From positions 3,715,501-3,779,500 of the forward strand of contig NZ_JBANRJ010000001.1 in the NCBI RefSeq assembly GCF_037154075.1: a stretch of 64,000 nt of DNA. The letters are read 5' to 3'. The first letter of the stretch is position 1; each line of letters starts with the position of its first letter. A program made the translations under genes and the position numbers. Origin of the DNA: Sphingobium aromaticiconvertens (GTDB lineage: Bacteria; Pseudomonadota; Alphaproteobacteria; Sphingomonadales; Sphingomonadaceae). Shown here piece by piece: positions 59,026 to 63,914 of the stretch. Below the pieces are notes generated by a model that searched no databases, was not told where the DNA came from, and saw only the letters and a program-made list of their open reading frames with translations.

Positions 59026-60120
59026 ATGACGGAACGCAGCGCGAATATGCCCCCCATTGCCTTCCTGGCCATTGCAGAGGCGCAGCAGCTTTATCACTGG
59101 CTGCCTGCCGCATTGGCACTCGCGCGCGATAGCGGCGCGCGGGTCGATGTCCTGTCCCCCTCCCACGCCATCCTGCATATTGTTGCCGATCACGACCCGG
59201 AAGGGCGCATAGGGCGGGTTCTTCTCCGTCGCCCGACCTTCAAGCCCGATTCGCTGTTTACCATGCCCTCGCGGTTCGCGACTCTGGCGCTCAACTATCC
59301 AACCATCCGTCGCTACCCAACGATCGTCACCACCGAAACATCCAGCGCCATCCTGCGCCATTTCCCCGGCTTCCGTTCAAAGCTGGTCGAGATCAAACAT
59401 GGCGCGGGCGACCGGGCGGGCGGCTACAAGAACGCCCATGCCGCCTTCGACCTGGTGCTGGTCGCGGGCGACAAGGACCGGGAGCGGATGATCGCGCTGG
59501 GCCTTCAGACGCCCGACCGCGTGACCGCCTGTGGCTATGCGAAGTTCGAGGTGATGGCAGCGCGCCAGACGCTGTTCGACAACGACCTGCCCGTCATCCT
59601 CTACAACCCGCATTTCGACGCCGCGCTATCCTCCTGGGTCCGGCATGGCCCAAAGGTGCTGGCGGCACTGGAGTCGCTCAAGGGCTATAATGTCGTGATC
59701 GCGCCGCATACAAAGCTGGCGCAGCGCATTCCCCCGATCCGCACGGACGCCCCCCATATCCTCCTCGACATGGGGTCCGTCCGCTCGATCGACATGAGCT
59801 ACACCAACAGCGCCGACCTCTATCTGGGCGACGTCAGCAGTCAGGTCTATGAGTTCATTCTGCGCCCGCGCCCCTGCCTGTTCCTGAACCTCGACCAGCA
59901 TGATTGGATGGACGATCCGCACTTCGCCCATTTCACGCTGGGGCAGGTGATCGACACGCTTGCCGACCTGCCAACCGCCCTTTCCCGTGCCGCCGCGATG
60001 CAGTCGCAGTTTGAAAGCGTGCAGAAGGCGGCTATGCGCTTTGCGATCAACGATGGGCCAGTGCCCGCCTCCCGACGCCAGGCGGACGCCATCCGCGCGG
60101 TGGCGGCGCGCACCGACTGA
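59026..60120 (+). CDS. CDP-glycerol glycerophosphotransferase-like protein
   Basis: A 364-aa GT-B-like protein without signal peptide. The pattern fits the Glyphos_transf family of teichoic-acid polymerases: VEIKHGAGDRAGGYKN (acceptor-side His), LVLVAGDKDRERMIALG, ILYNPHF, NVVIAPHTKLAQR, and ADLYLGDVSSQVYEFILRPRPCLFLN, which corresponds to the D.LITDYSS..fDf block. Transfer of a polyol phosphate from a CDP donor is inferred from family. It heads a plus-strand operon; the next gene, a CDP-alcohol phosphotransferase, starts 20 bp later. ATGs at 59026 (used) and 59047 are possible starts. Confidence 0.75.
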   Translation: MTERSANMPPIAFLAIAEAQQLYHWLPAALALARDSGARVDVLSPSHAILHIVADHDPEGRIGRVLLRRPTFKPDSLFTMPSRFATLALNYPTIRRYPTIVTTETSSAILRHFPGFRSKLVEIKHGAGDRAGGYKNAHAAFDLVLVAGDKDRERMIALGLQTPDRVTACGYAKFEVMAARQTLFDNDLPVILYNPHFDAALSSWVRHGPKVLAALESLKGYNVVIAPHTKLAQRIPPIRTDAPHILLDMGSVRSIDMSYTNSADLYLGDVSSQVYEFILRPRPCLFLNLDQHDWMDDPHFAHFTLGQVIDTLADLPTALSRAAAMQSQFESVQKAAMRFAINDGPVPASRRQADAIRAVAARTD

Positions 60121-60140
60121 GCAGGACGACCGGAAACAGC

Positions 60141-61256
60141 ATGACCACCGACAGCAACCCGCAATCGCCGCTCGGACAGATCCGGCTGATCGGACAGAAT
60201 GACACCCGCATCTGGGGCATGACCAATGCCGAGCGTATCCGCCGCATGGCAAACGAGGCGGCAAAGAGCAGCAAGCAACTGGCCGCGGATCATTGCCTGG
60301 CCGTAAATCTTGCCTTCGTGTTCGACCCGCTGTTGCTACGCAAGGTGATCGCCGAGCCGGGTACGGTCTTCACCCGCAACGGCGTGCTGGTGGTCGGCCA
60401 GATGCCCGTGGAGATTGCCGTCGAACGCCCAGTCGCGGCGCAGGGCGTGACCATCATCGACCTTGCCGACGGCAAACGCATCTACAACGACCAGCTTCGC
60501 AAGCTGGAAGCGCCTTTCGTCACCGAACTGACCCCGCAGACCCGCGCTGCGATCGAACGACAAAGCTATTTCGGCGCGTATAAGGGCGTGACCGACCTGC
60601 TCACCAAATATCTGTGGCCCGAACTGGCGTTCATCCTGACGCGGATTGCTGCACGGATCGGCATGACCCCGAATATGGTGTCAGTCATTGGCGTTACCTG
60701 CTGCATCGCCGCAACCTTCCTCTTCGCTTATGGCCATTACTGGACCGGGATGCTGATTGGTTTCGTCTTCATGGTGCTGGACACGGTCGACGGAAAGCTG
60801 GCGCGCTGCACCATCACCTCTTCCAAATGGGGCCATGTGATCGACCATGGCGTCGACCTCGTCCACCCGCCCTTCTGGTGGTACGCTTGGGGTGTCGGCC
60901 TTGCGACATGGGGATTGGCGCTGTCGCCTGCGACCTTCTGGACCGTCATGGGCGTGATCTTCGCGGGCTACGTCCTCCAGCGGTTGATCGAGGGTGCGTT
61001 CATCACCGGCTTTGGCATGCATATCCATGTCTGGCGGCCCTTCGACACCTGGTTCCGCCTCATCACCGCACGGCGCAATCCCAACATGGTGATCCTGTTC
61101 GCCTCCATGCTGGCGGGACGCCCCGATTGGGGTATCATCGCCGTCGCCTGGTGGACCGGCCTCTCGCTCGCCGTCCACCTCTTCCAACTGCTCCAGGCCT
61201 ATTGGTTGAAGGCGCGCGGGCAGACGATCACCAGTTGGCTGGAGCAAGGCGCATGA
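60141..61256 (+). CDS. CDP-alcohol phosphotransferase with unidentified N-terminal domain
   Basis: A 371-aa protein in two parts. Residues about 175-360 are a membrane CDP-alcohol phosphatidyltransferase domain: the full D..DG..AR........G...D...D motif is present (DTVDGKLAR, then eight residues, G, HVIDHGVD). Residues 1 to about 150 are soluble and unrecognised (LIGQNDTRIWGMTNAER, VFTRNGVLVVGQMPVEIAVE). In IPCT-DIPPS fusions a cytidylyltransferase precedes such a domain; here the nucleotidyltransferase is a separate gene nearby, so this part may be a relic or an acceptor domain. TGA overlaps the HIT gene start (ATGA). Confidence 0.85.
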   Translation: MTTDSNPQSPLGQIRLIGQNDTRIWGMTNAERIRRMANEAAKSSKQLAADHCLAVNLAFVFDPLLLRKVIAEPGTVFTRNGVLVVGQMPVEIAVERPVAAQGVTIIDLADGKRIYNDQLRKLEAPFVTELTPQTRAAIERQSYFGAYKGVTDLLTKYLWPELAFILTRIAARIGMTPNMVSVIGVTCCIAATFLFAYGHYWTGMLIGFVFMVLDTVDGKLARCTITSSKWGHVIDHGVDLVHPPFWWYAWGVGLATWGLALSPATFWTVMGVIFAGYVLQRLIEGAFITGFGMHIHVWRPFDTWFRLITARRNPNMVILFASMLAGRPDWGIIAVAWWTGLSLAVHLFQLLQAYWLKARGQTITSWLEQGA

Positions 61257-61681
61257 ACGAAACAATCGTCAAGTTCGGCTGGCCCGACACGCTGGTCTGC
61301 GAATATACGCACTGGCTCATCCTCCTGCGCCCCGCCCAGCCGACGCTGGGATCGCTGGTGCTGGCGGCAAAGTCCGACGCCACCGCCTTCGGTGATTTGC
61401 CTCCTGAGGCCCATGCCGAACTGGCGATCGTGACCAACGCCATCGAAACCGCCCTTAAAGCTGCGATCGATTACAGCCGGATCAACTATCTGATGCTGAT
61501 GATGGTGGACCCCAACGTCCATTTCCACGTCCTGCCCCGTTATGAGGGCACACGCAGCAGCGCAGGACTAACGGTCCCCGACGCCGGATGGCCGGGCCAA
61601 CCGGATCTCGCCAGCGCGGTCAAGCTGGACGCCGCCCAGCGCGACACCCTGCTGGCATGGTTGAAACCCTACTTCGTGTAA
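61253..61681 (+). CDS. HIT-family protein with altered His triad
   Basis: A 142-aa HIT-like protein (nucleotide hydrolase/transferase fold). The triad block reads DPNVHFHVLPRYEG: the second and third His of HxHxHxx are kept, the first is Asn. WLILLRPAQPTLGSLVLA is the N-terminal pattern. The ATG is fixed by the ATGA overlap with the CDP-alcohol phosphotransferase, so the two proteins are probably made together. It may cleave or salvage a CDP-linked intermediate. Its end overlaps the convergent nucleotidyltransferase gene by 13 bp. Confidence 0.8.
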   Translation: MNETIVKFGWPDTLVCEYTHWLILLRPAQPTLGSLVLAAKSDATAFGDLPPEAHAELAIVTNAIETALKAAIDYSRINYLMLMMVDPNVHFHVLPRYEGTRSSAGLTVPDAGWPGQPDLASAVKLDAAQRDTLLAWLKPYFV

Positions 61682-62433
61682 CGGCCTTCCTCGACCCATT
61701 TCGCCGTCAACGCCGTCGCTGCCTCAACGTCCTGATGGAAGTCGACTTCCTGCCATTCCAGCCCCTCGATCGACACGGTGCCGACACTGTTGCCCTTGGC
61801 AATGATGTCGATGGCGCGCAGATACCAGCGCTCGACCCCTTCCGGCGTCCGCATCATCTGGTCGATCTGGTTGCGGAAGATCGCCGGACCTTCGCCACAA
61901 AAGGCCAGCATCCCGATCGATTCGGCATTGGTGTCGGGGGGTAGCAGACGTTTGCCGATGGCGTGCAGGCGGCCCTCGGCATCCCGATTCACTTTCATGT
62001 CGTCATCATCATAGTCGCTCTTCACATCGACAGTGACGGTGATCGGCCCAGTCGCGCCCACGATCAGCTTCGCAACGATCTCGTCCGACACGATCGTGTC
62101 GCCATTCAGGATGATGAAGTCCTGATCCATCTCCTCCCGCGCGATCCAGCAGGTGCCCAAATTATCGGCAACCTGAAAGAAGGGGTTGAACAGCGTCCGT
62201 ATCCGCGCGCCGGTGTCGCGATAGAGTTGCAGCGCATGATCCTCGACCCGCTCGGTGCGAAAGCCGGTGACGACGACGATATCGGTCACGCCATTGGCGA
62301 CCAGTGCCGCGACCTGCCAACTGATGAGGCTGCGACCGTTGAAGTCGATCATGCATTTGGGCACGTCGCGCGTCAGCGGCAACAGGCGTGAGCCTTGCCC
62401 CGCGGAAAGGATGATGGCTTTGGTGATGCTCAT
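61669..62433 (-). CDS. Sugar/polyol-phosphate nucleotidyltransferase
   Basis: A 254-aa NTP transferase. AIILSAGQGSRLLPLT (nucleotide-binding), DVPKCMIDFNGRSLI (Lys for phosphate) and DFIILNGDTIVSD (metal Asp) are the usual motifs. The closest patterns are inositol-1-phosphate cytidylyltransferase and phosphocholine/MurNAc-phosphate nucleotidyltransferases. With the CDP-alcohol transferase next door, a CDP product is the likely outcome. It faces the other genes of the block. Confidence 0.85.
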   Translation of the reverse strand: MSITKAIILSAGQGSRLLPLTRDVPKCMIDFNGRSLISWQVAALVANGVTDIVVVTGFRTERVEDHALQLYRDTGARIRTLFNPFFQVADNLGTCWIAREEMDQDFIILNGDTIVSDEIVAKLIVGATGPITVTVDVKSDYDDDDMKVNRDAEGRLHAIGKRLLPPDTNAESIGMLAFCGEGPAIFRNQIDQMMRTPEGVERWYLRAIDIIAKGNSVGTVSIEGLEWQEVDFHQDVEAATALTAKWVEEGRYTK

Positions 62434-62555
62434 GCGCGCGCTCTACCGCAAACTTGCCTTTGTGGACAATCGCCAACTGCGGACATTTGCCGTTTGGCGA
62501 CCATCACCCTAGATAGGCCGCGCCGGACCGTCCGGCGCCGGAGCATGAAACAGAC

Positions 62556-63914
62556 GTGAGCAAGCCCGACAGCGTAGCGGCCAAAAACTCCAAAGCTGGC
62601 GATTCAGGCGCGAACAGCGGCTTCGCGCGCATTCTTGCCAACACCGGCTGGCTGCTGGGCGGCAAGGGCGTGGGCGCGATCCTCTCCATCGTCTATCTCG
62701 CCATCGCCACACGCACCCTGGGCGTGGCCGACTTCGGCCGCTTCGCCCTGGTCCTCTCCGCCGCGCAGGCGATCAAGACGCTGGTATCCTTCGAAAGCTG
62801 GCAGATCATCATCCGCTATGGGCAGGAACATCTGAAGGCGGCGGACGCGGCAGAGGGCGGGCACGCACTCAATCGCCTCGCCCGCTTCTGCATTCTGGTC
62901 GATCTGGTTTCTGCCATCGTCGGCTGCGCGCTGGCGGCGGCACTGACCCTGATCTTCGGGCCTATGATGGATCTGTCGCGCGACATGGCGATCGACGCGA
63001 TCCTCTTCTGTGCGGTCATGCTGCTGACGATCCGATCGACACCGATGGGCATATTGCGCCTGTTCGACCGCTTTGACGCGGGGGCGCTCGCTGAAACGAT
63101 GGTGCCCATCGGCCGGATGATCGGTGCGCTCGCCGTGCTGGCGGCTGGCCCGTCCATCGCAGGCTTTCTGCTCGCCTGGGCTGGCGCGGAACTGCTTTGC
63201 GCAATCAGCTACTGGTGGCTGGCATTGCGGGCAGGCAAAGGCCGGATGGGATCATGGCGCGCAGGCCACACGCTGGATGCCCGGACCGAAAATCCTGGCC
63301 TCGTCGGCTTTCTCACCGCCACCAACCTGCAAGTGACACTCTCTTCAATGGGCCAGCAAGTCGCTGTACTGTTCATCGGCATATTCGTCGGCCCTACCGG
63401 CGCGGGCCTCTATCGCCTCGCCAATCAGCTCTCCGCCTCGCTCACAAAGATTTCGGGCCTCCTCTCCCGCAGCATCTTCGTGGAACTGGCGCGCACCCAC
63501 AGCCATGAAGGCACCGCAGAACTGCGCACCCTGTTTCGCCGCACCAACCGGCTGGCGCTGATCGCTGGCGCGGTCATCATCCTGCTGATCCTCGCCGTCG
63601 GCCACCCGCTGCTGGGCCTGATCGCGGGCAAGGATTTCCTCCCCGCCTATCCGCTATTGCTGGTGCTGGGCGTCGCCGCGTCGATCGACCTTGTGGGCGT
63701 CAGCTATCGCCCCCTCCTTATGGCGACCGACGGCGCGCGCCTGTCGCTTCGCATCACCTTCGTTGCAACTTTGCTGATGTTCGTCCTGCTCGCCGTGCTG
63801 CTACCGCTTTACGACACGATCGGCGCGGCCTTTGCCAATCTGGCATCCTCGATCGTCGCCTTCTTCATGATGGGCTGGGCCAGCCGCAGGATGATGCGCG
63901 GCGGCACATCCTGA
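62556..63914 (+). CDS. Oligosaccharide/lipid flippase (MATE-like, PST family)
   Basis: A 452-aa membrane protein with about 12-14 helices. A hydrophilic N-terminus (about 1-25) is followed by NTGWLLGGKGVGAILSIVYLAIATRTLG and VADFGRFALVLS, typical of the polysaccharide_synt family. GTG start. It is divergent from the nucleotidyltransferase gene across 122 bp and is the second flippase in the window; it likely exports the product of the adjacent pathway. Confidence 0.88.
   Translation: MSKPDSVAAKNSKAGDSGANSGFARILANTGWLLGGKGVGAILSIVYLAIATRTLGVADFGRFALVLSAAQAIKTLVSFESWQIIIRYGQEHLKAADAAEGGHALNRLARFCILVDLVSAIVGCALAAALTLIFGPMMDLSRDMAIDAILFCAVMLLTIRSTPMGILRLFDRFDAGALAETMVPIGRMIGALAVLAAGPSIAGFLLAWAGAELLCAISYWWLALRAGKGRMGSWRAGHTLDARTENPGLVGFLTATNLQVTLSSMGQQVAVLFIGIFVGPTGAGLYRLANQLSASLTKISGLLSRSIFVELARTHSHEGTAELRTLFRRTNRLALIAGAVIILLILAVGHPLLGLIAGKDFLPAYPLLLVLGVAASIDLVGVSYRPLLMATDGARLSLRITFVATLLMFVLLAVLLPLYDTIGAAFANLASSIVAFFMMGWASRRMMRGGTS

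Follow-up and report, generated by a model that had tools for sequence, protein, structure and literature searches.

A probable second head-group stage of ceramide diphosphoglycerate (CPG2) synthesis at a five-gene locus of Sphingobium aromaticiconvertens

We analyzed a 64,000-nucleotide stretch of the Sphingobium aromaticiconvertens genome (contig NZ_JBANRJ010000001.1, positions 3,715,501 to 3,779,500), called the window below. We focused on five neighbouring genes near its end and compared them with the pathway of ceramide diphosphoglycerate (CPG2; CPG, ceramide-phosphoglycerate), a phosphosphingolipid of Caulobacter. The genes encode a TagF-like transferase (G1), a CDP-alcohol phosphotransferase (PT), a HIT protein (HIT), a nucleotidyltransferase (NTP) and a flippase (FLIP). 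All five open reading frames described in an earlier note on this DNA were present (Table 1), as were the ATGA at 61253, where PT ends and HIT starts, and the 13-bp overlap of HIT and NTP. The latter overlap is convergent and therefore does not couple the translation of these two genes. There is also an in-frame TTG 6 bp before the G1 start at 59026.

Table 1. Features of the five-gene locus (positions within the window)
Feature	Position	Strand	Basis
G1: TagF/PF04464-like transferase, 364 aa	59026..60120	+	ORF list, profile searches
PT: CpgA-like CDP-alcohol phosphotransferase, 371 aa	60141..61256	+	ORF, Pfam, profile alignment
CDP-alcohol transferase motif in PT, residues 214-239	60780..60857	+	alignment of 26 sequences
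HIT protein, 142 aa; relative at CC_1157 position in collinear clusters	61253..61681	+	ORF, Pfam, gene order
HIT motif N-V-H-F-H, residues 88-92	61514..61528	+	alignment of 12 sequences
NTP: CpgD-like cytidylyltransferase, 254 aa; proposed CTP:2-phosphoglycerate cytidylyltransferase	61669..62433	-	ORF, Pfam, residue comparison
Convergent overlap of HIT and NTP gene ends, 13 bp including stop codons	61669..61681	.	sequence
FLIP: MOP/Wzx-type flippase, 452 aa; relative of flippases in sphingolipid clusters	62556..63914	+	ORF, Pfam, cluster comparison

The distribution of the genes was analyzed in 79 genomes from 78 genera of Sphingomonadaceae, the genome of the window included. Each gene was searched separately, and the sets were compiled by hand with cut-offs set after the tables had been seen (PT, E<=1e-40, 13 weaker genomes dropped; NTP, E<=1e-30, 53 weaker genomes dropped; FLIP, E<=1e-25, 4 genomes dropped). 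Every match was kept for HIT, G1 and the relatives of CpgC and of a second nucleotidyltransferase (NTP2), and the matches of G008 and G040 were dropped from the CpgB-like kinase set as generic. We detected PT in 25 genomes and strong matches of NTP in the identical 25. HIT was present in 22, all within the PT set, and it was never found without PT. The set of close NTP relatives was the same as the HIT set (22 and 22), and the three PT genomes without HIT (G028, G043 and G067) were exactly those that carry a distant NTP paralogue (31-35% identity). Among the HIT genomes, the gap between PT and HIT was below 300 bp in 16 (same strand in 15) and the gap between HIT and NTP was below 300 bp in 17, with opposite strands in all 17. 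Both gaps were this short in 13 of the 22, while in some of the remaining genomes the three genes lay far apart or on different contigs. This arrangement exceeds chance; the calculated co-occurrence probabilities ignore relatedness and no evidential use was made of them. Because the three genes occur together and keep their spacing, we treat them as one unit. The check for co-occurrence and conserved order that the earlier note had called for thus favours a shared pathway.

The phosphosphingolipid cluster of Caulobacter spans CC_1152-CC_1168 (PMC11324152). According to that article, CC_1160 is the ceramide kinase CpgB (also PMC10331486), CC_1161 is CpgC, with a CDP-DAG synthase domain, CC_1159 is CpgA, with a CDP-alcohol transferase domain, CC_1152 is CpgD and CC_1153 is another nucleotidyltransferase. 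CC_1158 is a phosphoesterase, CC_1155/1156 are LptG2/F2, and CC_1166 is a potential flippase. Ceramide synthesis is attributed to CC_1154 and CC_1162-1165, with CC_1162 being Spt and the others following from the order in which they are listed (PMC11324152). CpgD is a CTP:phosphoglycerate cytidylyltransferase (PMC12275187), and its structures are given in a preprint (PMC13228409). The activities of CpgD and CpgB and the lipid profiles of Caulobacter mutants were shown experimentally by others.

Further, we scanned genome contigs with the HIT alignment, obtained 466 relatives and kept the best 80. Their ranking reflects similarity to one Desertibaculum HIT protein, so they are not a random sample; 23 are sphingomonads by title, many of the loci stop at contig edges, and some overlap the family sample (e.g. 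G035/L117, G046/L103). No Caulobacter record is among the 80. PT, HIT and NTP occurred together in 44 of these 80 loci. Ceramide-backbone genes were present in 38, and 67 loci carried at least one ceramide, head-group or LptF/G gene. All five families of the window were found in five loci (L099, L109, L132, L153 and L172, from a Kiloniellaceae metagenome-assembled genome, Belnapia, Siccirubricoccus, a Nevskia metagenome-assembled genome and Azospirillum), each with ceramide genes. Clustering of the open reading frames around HIT revealed genes for an aminotransferase (Spt), a fatty acyl-AMP ligase (AasR), an epimerase-type reductase (CerR), a GNAT protein (CerS) and an ACP, accompanied by LptF/LptG, a metallophosphoesterase and a DAGK-type kinase; a CpgC-like protein and a second nucleotidyltransferase were found there as well. 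Domains were scanned in one or two members per cluster; the names AasR and ACP come from RefSeq, and CerS and the like are our assignments. One scanned CpgC-like member matched Tam41 with 20.3 bits (cut-off 24, not reached) and the other matched no family. The earlier note had regarded the pathway as possibly undescribed. Descriptions of the CPG2 pathway have been published (PMC12275187, PMC11324152, PMC13228409), and the genes of the window recur in ceramide/CPG clusters.

On the Roseomonas marmotae plasmid p1318-4 the order of genes runs NTP, second NTP, CerS, LptG, LptF, HIT, phosphoesterase, PT, kinase, CpgC-like gene, Spt and ACP. This is collinear with the order of CC_1152-CC_1163 that the functions given in PMC11324152 imply. 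The PT, HIT, NTP and FLIP proteins of the window are 41, 57, 48 and 32% identical to their relatives in this cluster. The slot of CC_1157, between LptF and the metallophosphoesterase, is occupied there by a protein annotated in RefSeq as a HIT family protein. HIT is the sole gene in this slot on Diaphorobacter pDCB2, and it also lies between the phosphoesterase and LptF2 in L105, L121 and L159. Because HIT fills this slot in the collinear clusters of these other taxa, CC_1157 is taken to be the HIT gene. Zymomonas is reported to lack both CC_1159 and CC_1157 (PMC11324152), and this joint absence fits a partnership of HIT with CpgA. The same article calls CC_1157 "probably unrelated" to the pathway; for mutants of CC_1167 it gives moderate cofitness with spt (0.57) and CC_1159 (0.54). 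It also reports at least 13 cluster orthologues in Pseudomonas luteola. We counted 13 cluster genes, HIT included, in Pseudomonas asuensis (L140). The two Pseudomonas species are presumably close relatives.

We also looked for the rest of the pathway in the genome of the window, searching for relatives of Spt, CpgB, CpgC and CC_1153; AasR, CerR and CerS were outside this search. Spt (417 aa, with an ACP match) and a CpgC-like gene (327 aa) were found at C1:4.232-4.238 Mb, a CpgB-like kinase (324 aa) beside LptF2/LptG2 at C1:4.443-4.447 Mb, and a CC_1153-like gene (266 aa) at C1:2.004 Mb, all with intact frames. Identities of Spt, the CpgC-like and the CpgB-like protein were 51, 38 and 31% to the queries; compared with the best members of the clusters they were 53, 44 and 33%. 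This scattering matches that reported for Sphingomonas wittichii, which has orthologues of 16 of the 17 cluster genes in 6 regions (PMC11324152). No further sphingolipid-cluster families were detected beyond the five genes, either in the window or in the 12 kb past its end (L005). A complete sphingolipid cluster at the window was therefore rejected: only five genes are there and others of the pathway are elsewhere in the genome.

In the family sample, the CpgB-, CpgC- and CC_1153-like genes were present in the same 60 of the 79 genomes, with the two weak kinase matches set aside. The PT, NTP and HIT sets are nested inside this set, with the exception of G017 (24 of the 25 PT genomes). On this pattern, CpgB, CpgC and CC_1153 would form the first head-group stage, and CpgA, CpgD and HIT the second. 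The placement of the CC_1153-like enzyme in the first stage is suggested by the shared presence together with the nesting. It differs from the placement based on Caulobacter mutants, where the absence of CPG2 and a rise in CPG put CC_1153 in the second stage, although the same mutant also accumulates ceramide (PMC11324152).

At the level of the proteins, NTP matches PF00483 with 49.8 bits (cut-off 21.2) and falls among nucleotidyltransferases of the sugar-phosphate/choline type. Its best NCBIfam models are of the GlmU, AglF and MurU types, followed by the inositol-phosphate cytidylyltransferase NF041135. The earlier note had named a MurNAc-1-phosphate or sugar-specific enzyme as the identity that would speak against its scheme; this appears not to apply, as such models score far under their cut-offs (MurU NF045761, 57.6 of 250 bits). 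We compared NTP with positions of CpgD described in PMC12275187 and PMC13228409 as contacts for catalysis, CTP or glycerate, made by side chains or by glycine backbone (G12, R16, K26, N90, T93, N110, G111, D112, M147, K161, S170 and W201). NTP keeps 12 of 12, in a register deduced without the real CpgD sequence; some of the residues carry shifted numbers in NTP (91, 94, 146, 172 and 203), and some of the 12 positions are general to the nucleotidyltransferase superfamily. T88 of CpgD, a backbone contact, is A in NTP. The solved proteins 1jyk and 6pd1 we take to be LicC phosphocholine cytidylyltransferase and PntC, respectively. LicC is the best solved relative of NTP (profile E 2.3e-24) and shares the N90 equivalent, which is S in PntC; however, it lacks the N110-G111-D112 segment present in CpgD and NTP, and N110-G111 is missing in PntC as well. 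In the NTP paralogues of G067 and G028, which have no HIT, N90 is replaced by S and W201 by F, as if their substrate were different. Y occupies position 201 in three others. The CpgD peptide ends implied by published primers matched none of the 120 proteins listed.

PT matches PF01066 with 38.6 bits (cut-off 22). Its motif D-x2-D-G-x2-A-R-x8-G-x3-D-x3-D, which we take to be the consensus of CDP-alcohol transferases, is complete, and the fixed residues are invariant in 26 aligned sequences. HIT reaches 21.0 bits with PF01230, just short of the cut-off of 21.5, and its profile matches solved HIT proteins (2oik, E 1.3e-10). H90 and H92 are invariant in 12 aligned sequences; the first position of the triad is N in the window, E in one relative and H in the other ten.

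G1 and FLIP are more widely distributed than PT. They were found in 37 (matches at E<=1e-3) and 46 of the 79 family genomes, and without PT in 19 and 30 of these. The earlier note described teichoic-acid-type polymerases as unexpected in sphingomonads; by this count, TagF-like proteins are not rare there. No Pfam family was detected in the G1 protein of the window itself; of the 31 aligned sequences, 13 match PF04464 at E<=1e-3, its score with the TarL model NF041713 is 19.3 bits (of 1000), and its profile matched none of the solved sequences at E<=0.01. What links G1 to the TagF/TarL wall teichoic acid polymerases is the PF04464 matches of its relatives and the weak TarL match; it is shorter (364 aa vs 562 TarL model positions), lies under Pfam detection and adjoins sphingolipid head-group genes. 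From the relationship to PF04464, G1 may extend a chain. FLIP matches PF01943 with 55.8 bits (cut-off 28.2).

We consider it probable (roughly 0.8) that the locus represents, in its sphingomonad version, the second stage of head-group assembly in CPG2 synthesis with a flippase added, and is a rearranged member of the Caulobacter-type pathway. Its direct basis is gene content, motifs, co-occurrence, conserved order and the other pathway genes in the same genome. NTP would convert CTP and 2-phosphoglycerate into CDP-glycerate. PT would transfer phosphoglycerate from CDP-glycerate to CPG with release of CMP, and HIT may act by hydrolysis or transfer on a CMP-linked compound of this stage, either an intermediate or a by-product. 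The flippase would turn the lipid over for export by a second Lpt system, and G1 might add further phosphoglycerate units to the same or a related acceptor. The locus shares with the published pathway a CpgD-like cytidylyltransferase, a CpgA-like transferase, a flippase and the HIT gene (CC_1157 by collinearity), and the genome has further genes of the pathway. It differs in being split off, in the joined TagF-like gene, in the ATGA overlap of HIT with PT and in having the second nucleotidyltransferase elsewhere; moreover, HIT and G1 have no part in the published scheme. What is new is that in the family the genomic occurrence of HIT, by gene order CC_1157, is strictly tied to the CpgA/CpgD stage. 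HIT and G1 are probably parts of the pathway without a published role: we found no assignment of a HIT or TagF-like gene to sphingolipid synthesis among the papers listed from one library of open articles or in the searched passages of PMC11324152 and PMC9386255.

Several observations weigh against this interpretation. In a legend of PMC11324152, CC_1157 mutants lack high cofitness with the cluster. On p1318-4 the slot between LptF and the phosphoesterase contains a DUF2141 gene besides HIT. The real sequences of CpgD, CpgA and CC_1157 were absent from the comparison. Thirteen of the 80 loci carry no cluster gene, some of them having short flanks. G1 is absent from 7 and FLIP from 9 of the 25 PT genomes, and 54 of the 79 family genomes, including the sole other genome of the genus, have no PT. 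Finally, G017 (L046, 96% complete) has relatives of PT, HIT, NTP and FLIP, with Spt approximately 9 kb away, and no CpgB-, CpgC- or CC_1153-like gene was found in that genome. The second-stage genes of G017 would therefore need an acceptor other than Caulobacter-type CPG.

The last case bears on the idea that in sphingomonads the same enzymes use another acceptor or donor, with phosphoglycerate or a relative passed directly onto ceramide or a glycosphingolipid and not onto CPG. The distant NTP of the three genomes in which HIT was not found points the same way, as do the substitutions in G067 and G028, and the donor may vary within the family. Against this, 24 of the 25 PT genomes, that of the window among them, have relatives of CpgB, CpgC and CC_1153, and we regard such a change as very doubtful. 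It is rather unlikely, too, that two unrelated groups stand side by side, PT-HIT-NTP serving the CPG2 stage and G1 with the flippase serving a capsule or other polysaccharide. The frequent presence of G1 and FLIP without PT speaks for such a division, as do the general MOP type of FLIP and the different MOP flippase of other loci. However, 36 of the 37 G1 genomes and 44 of the 46 FLIP genomes are CpgC genomes, G051 has the contiguous run LptF2-NTP2-CpgC-LK-G1-G1-FLIP and G009 the run NTP2-FLIP-G1-G1. On the grounds of this overlap and these runs, both genes seem to be part of the head-group set; the five loci with all five families and ceramide genes, although drawn from the best 80 of 466, likewise count against the division.

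The earlier note had favoured a phospho-polyol or inositol-phosphate product. NTP would then make CDP-inositol, and PT a phosphoinositol lipid or di-inositol phosphate. The best NCBIfam model of PT is indeed the PIP synthase NF045883, NF041135 is the fourth-best model of NTP, and solved relatives include PIPS and IPCT/DIPPS. The scores are far below the curated cut-offs (54.5 of 170 bits and 55.3 of 580 bits), the PT-HIT-NTP trio stands in ceramide clusters of other taxa, and the inositol-1-phosphate synthase family PF01658, present in 23 of the 79 family genomes, had no match in the genome of the window. The systems of this kind, the archaeal/thermophile IPCT-DIPPS and the mycobacterial-type PIP synthase, belong to the same superfamilies, and the profile of PT, from its position 20 onwards, can be aligned to AF2299, part of the N-terminal domain of the latter included; they differ in their gene neighbours. 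The inositol cassettes of other family genomes are a separate set of distant paralogues. In G002, G003, G008, G017, G030, G036, G038 and G078 a PF01658 synthase lies within approximately 4 kb of weak matches to NTP and to PT (the latter with 30-38% identity along only part of the protein), probably as a phosphoinositol system distinct from the locus of the window. We therefore rejected the inositol pathway for this locus, where it is most improbable given the scores and the missing synthase. On the strength of co-occurrence and conserved loci, the earlier proposal of a shared pathway stands in that a small molecule activated with CDP, a CDP-alcohol transferase in the membrane, the HIT protein and the flippase belong together; its product does not.

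If the second-stage interpretation is correct, the presence of PT in 25 of the 79 genomes suggests that the CPG2 second stage or a variant of it is carried by about one third of the sampled family. CPG2-type lipids help Caulobacter to live without lipopolysaccharide and are required for its polymyxin sensitivity (PMC12275187, PMC11324152). A bolder and unlikely extension is that in sphingomonads and some of their relatives a poly(phosphoglycerate) chain resembling teichoic acid is built on ceramide, and that at the outer surface this chain would replace anionic lipopolysaccharide. Here NTP would supply CDP-glycerate, PT would add the second unit and G1 would lengthen the chain, while HIT would clear or recycle a CMP intermediate and the flippase and a second Lpt system would carry the chain to the outer surface. 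Several steps of the CPG2 pathway have no assigned enzyme, and the comparison supplies candidates: the HIT protein, the TagF-like transferase, the second CDP-alcohol transferase that some clusters carry, and a new stage for the CC_1153-like enzyme.

This second CDP-alcohol transferase gene was observed between LptG2 and CerS in L105 (12770-13975), L121 (6169-7527), L159 (12744-13952) and L179 (9038-10246). In L121 and L159 it is followed by a gene that resembles a fatty-acid hydroxylase by eye. Its product could be the missing enzyme that transfers the first phosphoglycerate.

The translations of the genes around the locus were named by eye. Upstream are sdhB, a thioesterase-like gene, a ZapE-like ATPase and malate dehydrogenase; downstream are a short STAS-like gene, a cysE-like gene and others. 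L151, L156, L158, L171 and others have sdhB and ZapE as neighbours as in the window. These four also have an upstream HAD-type gene and a flippase of a different MOP family, as if flippases had been exchanged.

No confirmed relative of one HIT protein was detected in viral contigs. Four of the 13 HIT loci without cluster genes (L094, L096, L097 and L098, from Binatia or Desulfurellaceae metagenome-assembled genomes) have common neighbours, with sigma-factor-like and electron-transfer-flavoprotein-like genes beside HIT (named by eye) and no sphingolipid genes. Relatives of PT were present on 16 plasmid records, 13 of them from Roseomonas and 2 typed as conjugative. Ceramide and CPG-type genes flank PT on the three plasmids examined, namely pDCB2 of Diaphorobacter sp. 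JS3051 (IncP; L179), pPNP1 of Pseudomonas sp. JS425 (L180) and p1318-4 of Roseomonas marmotae (L181), and on pDCB2 mercury-resistance genes are close by.

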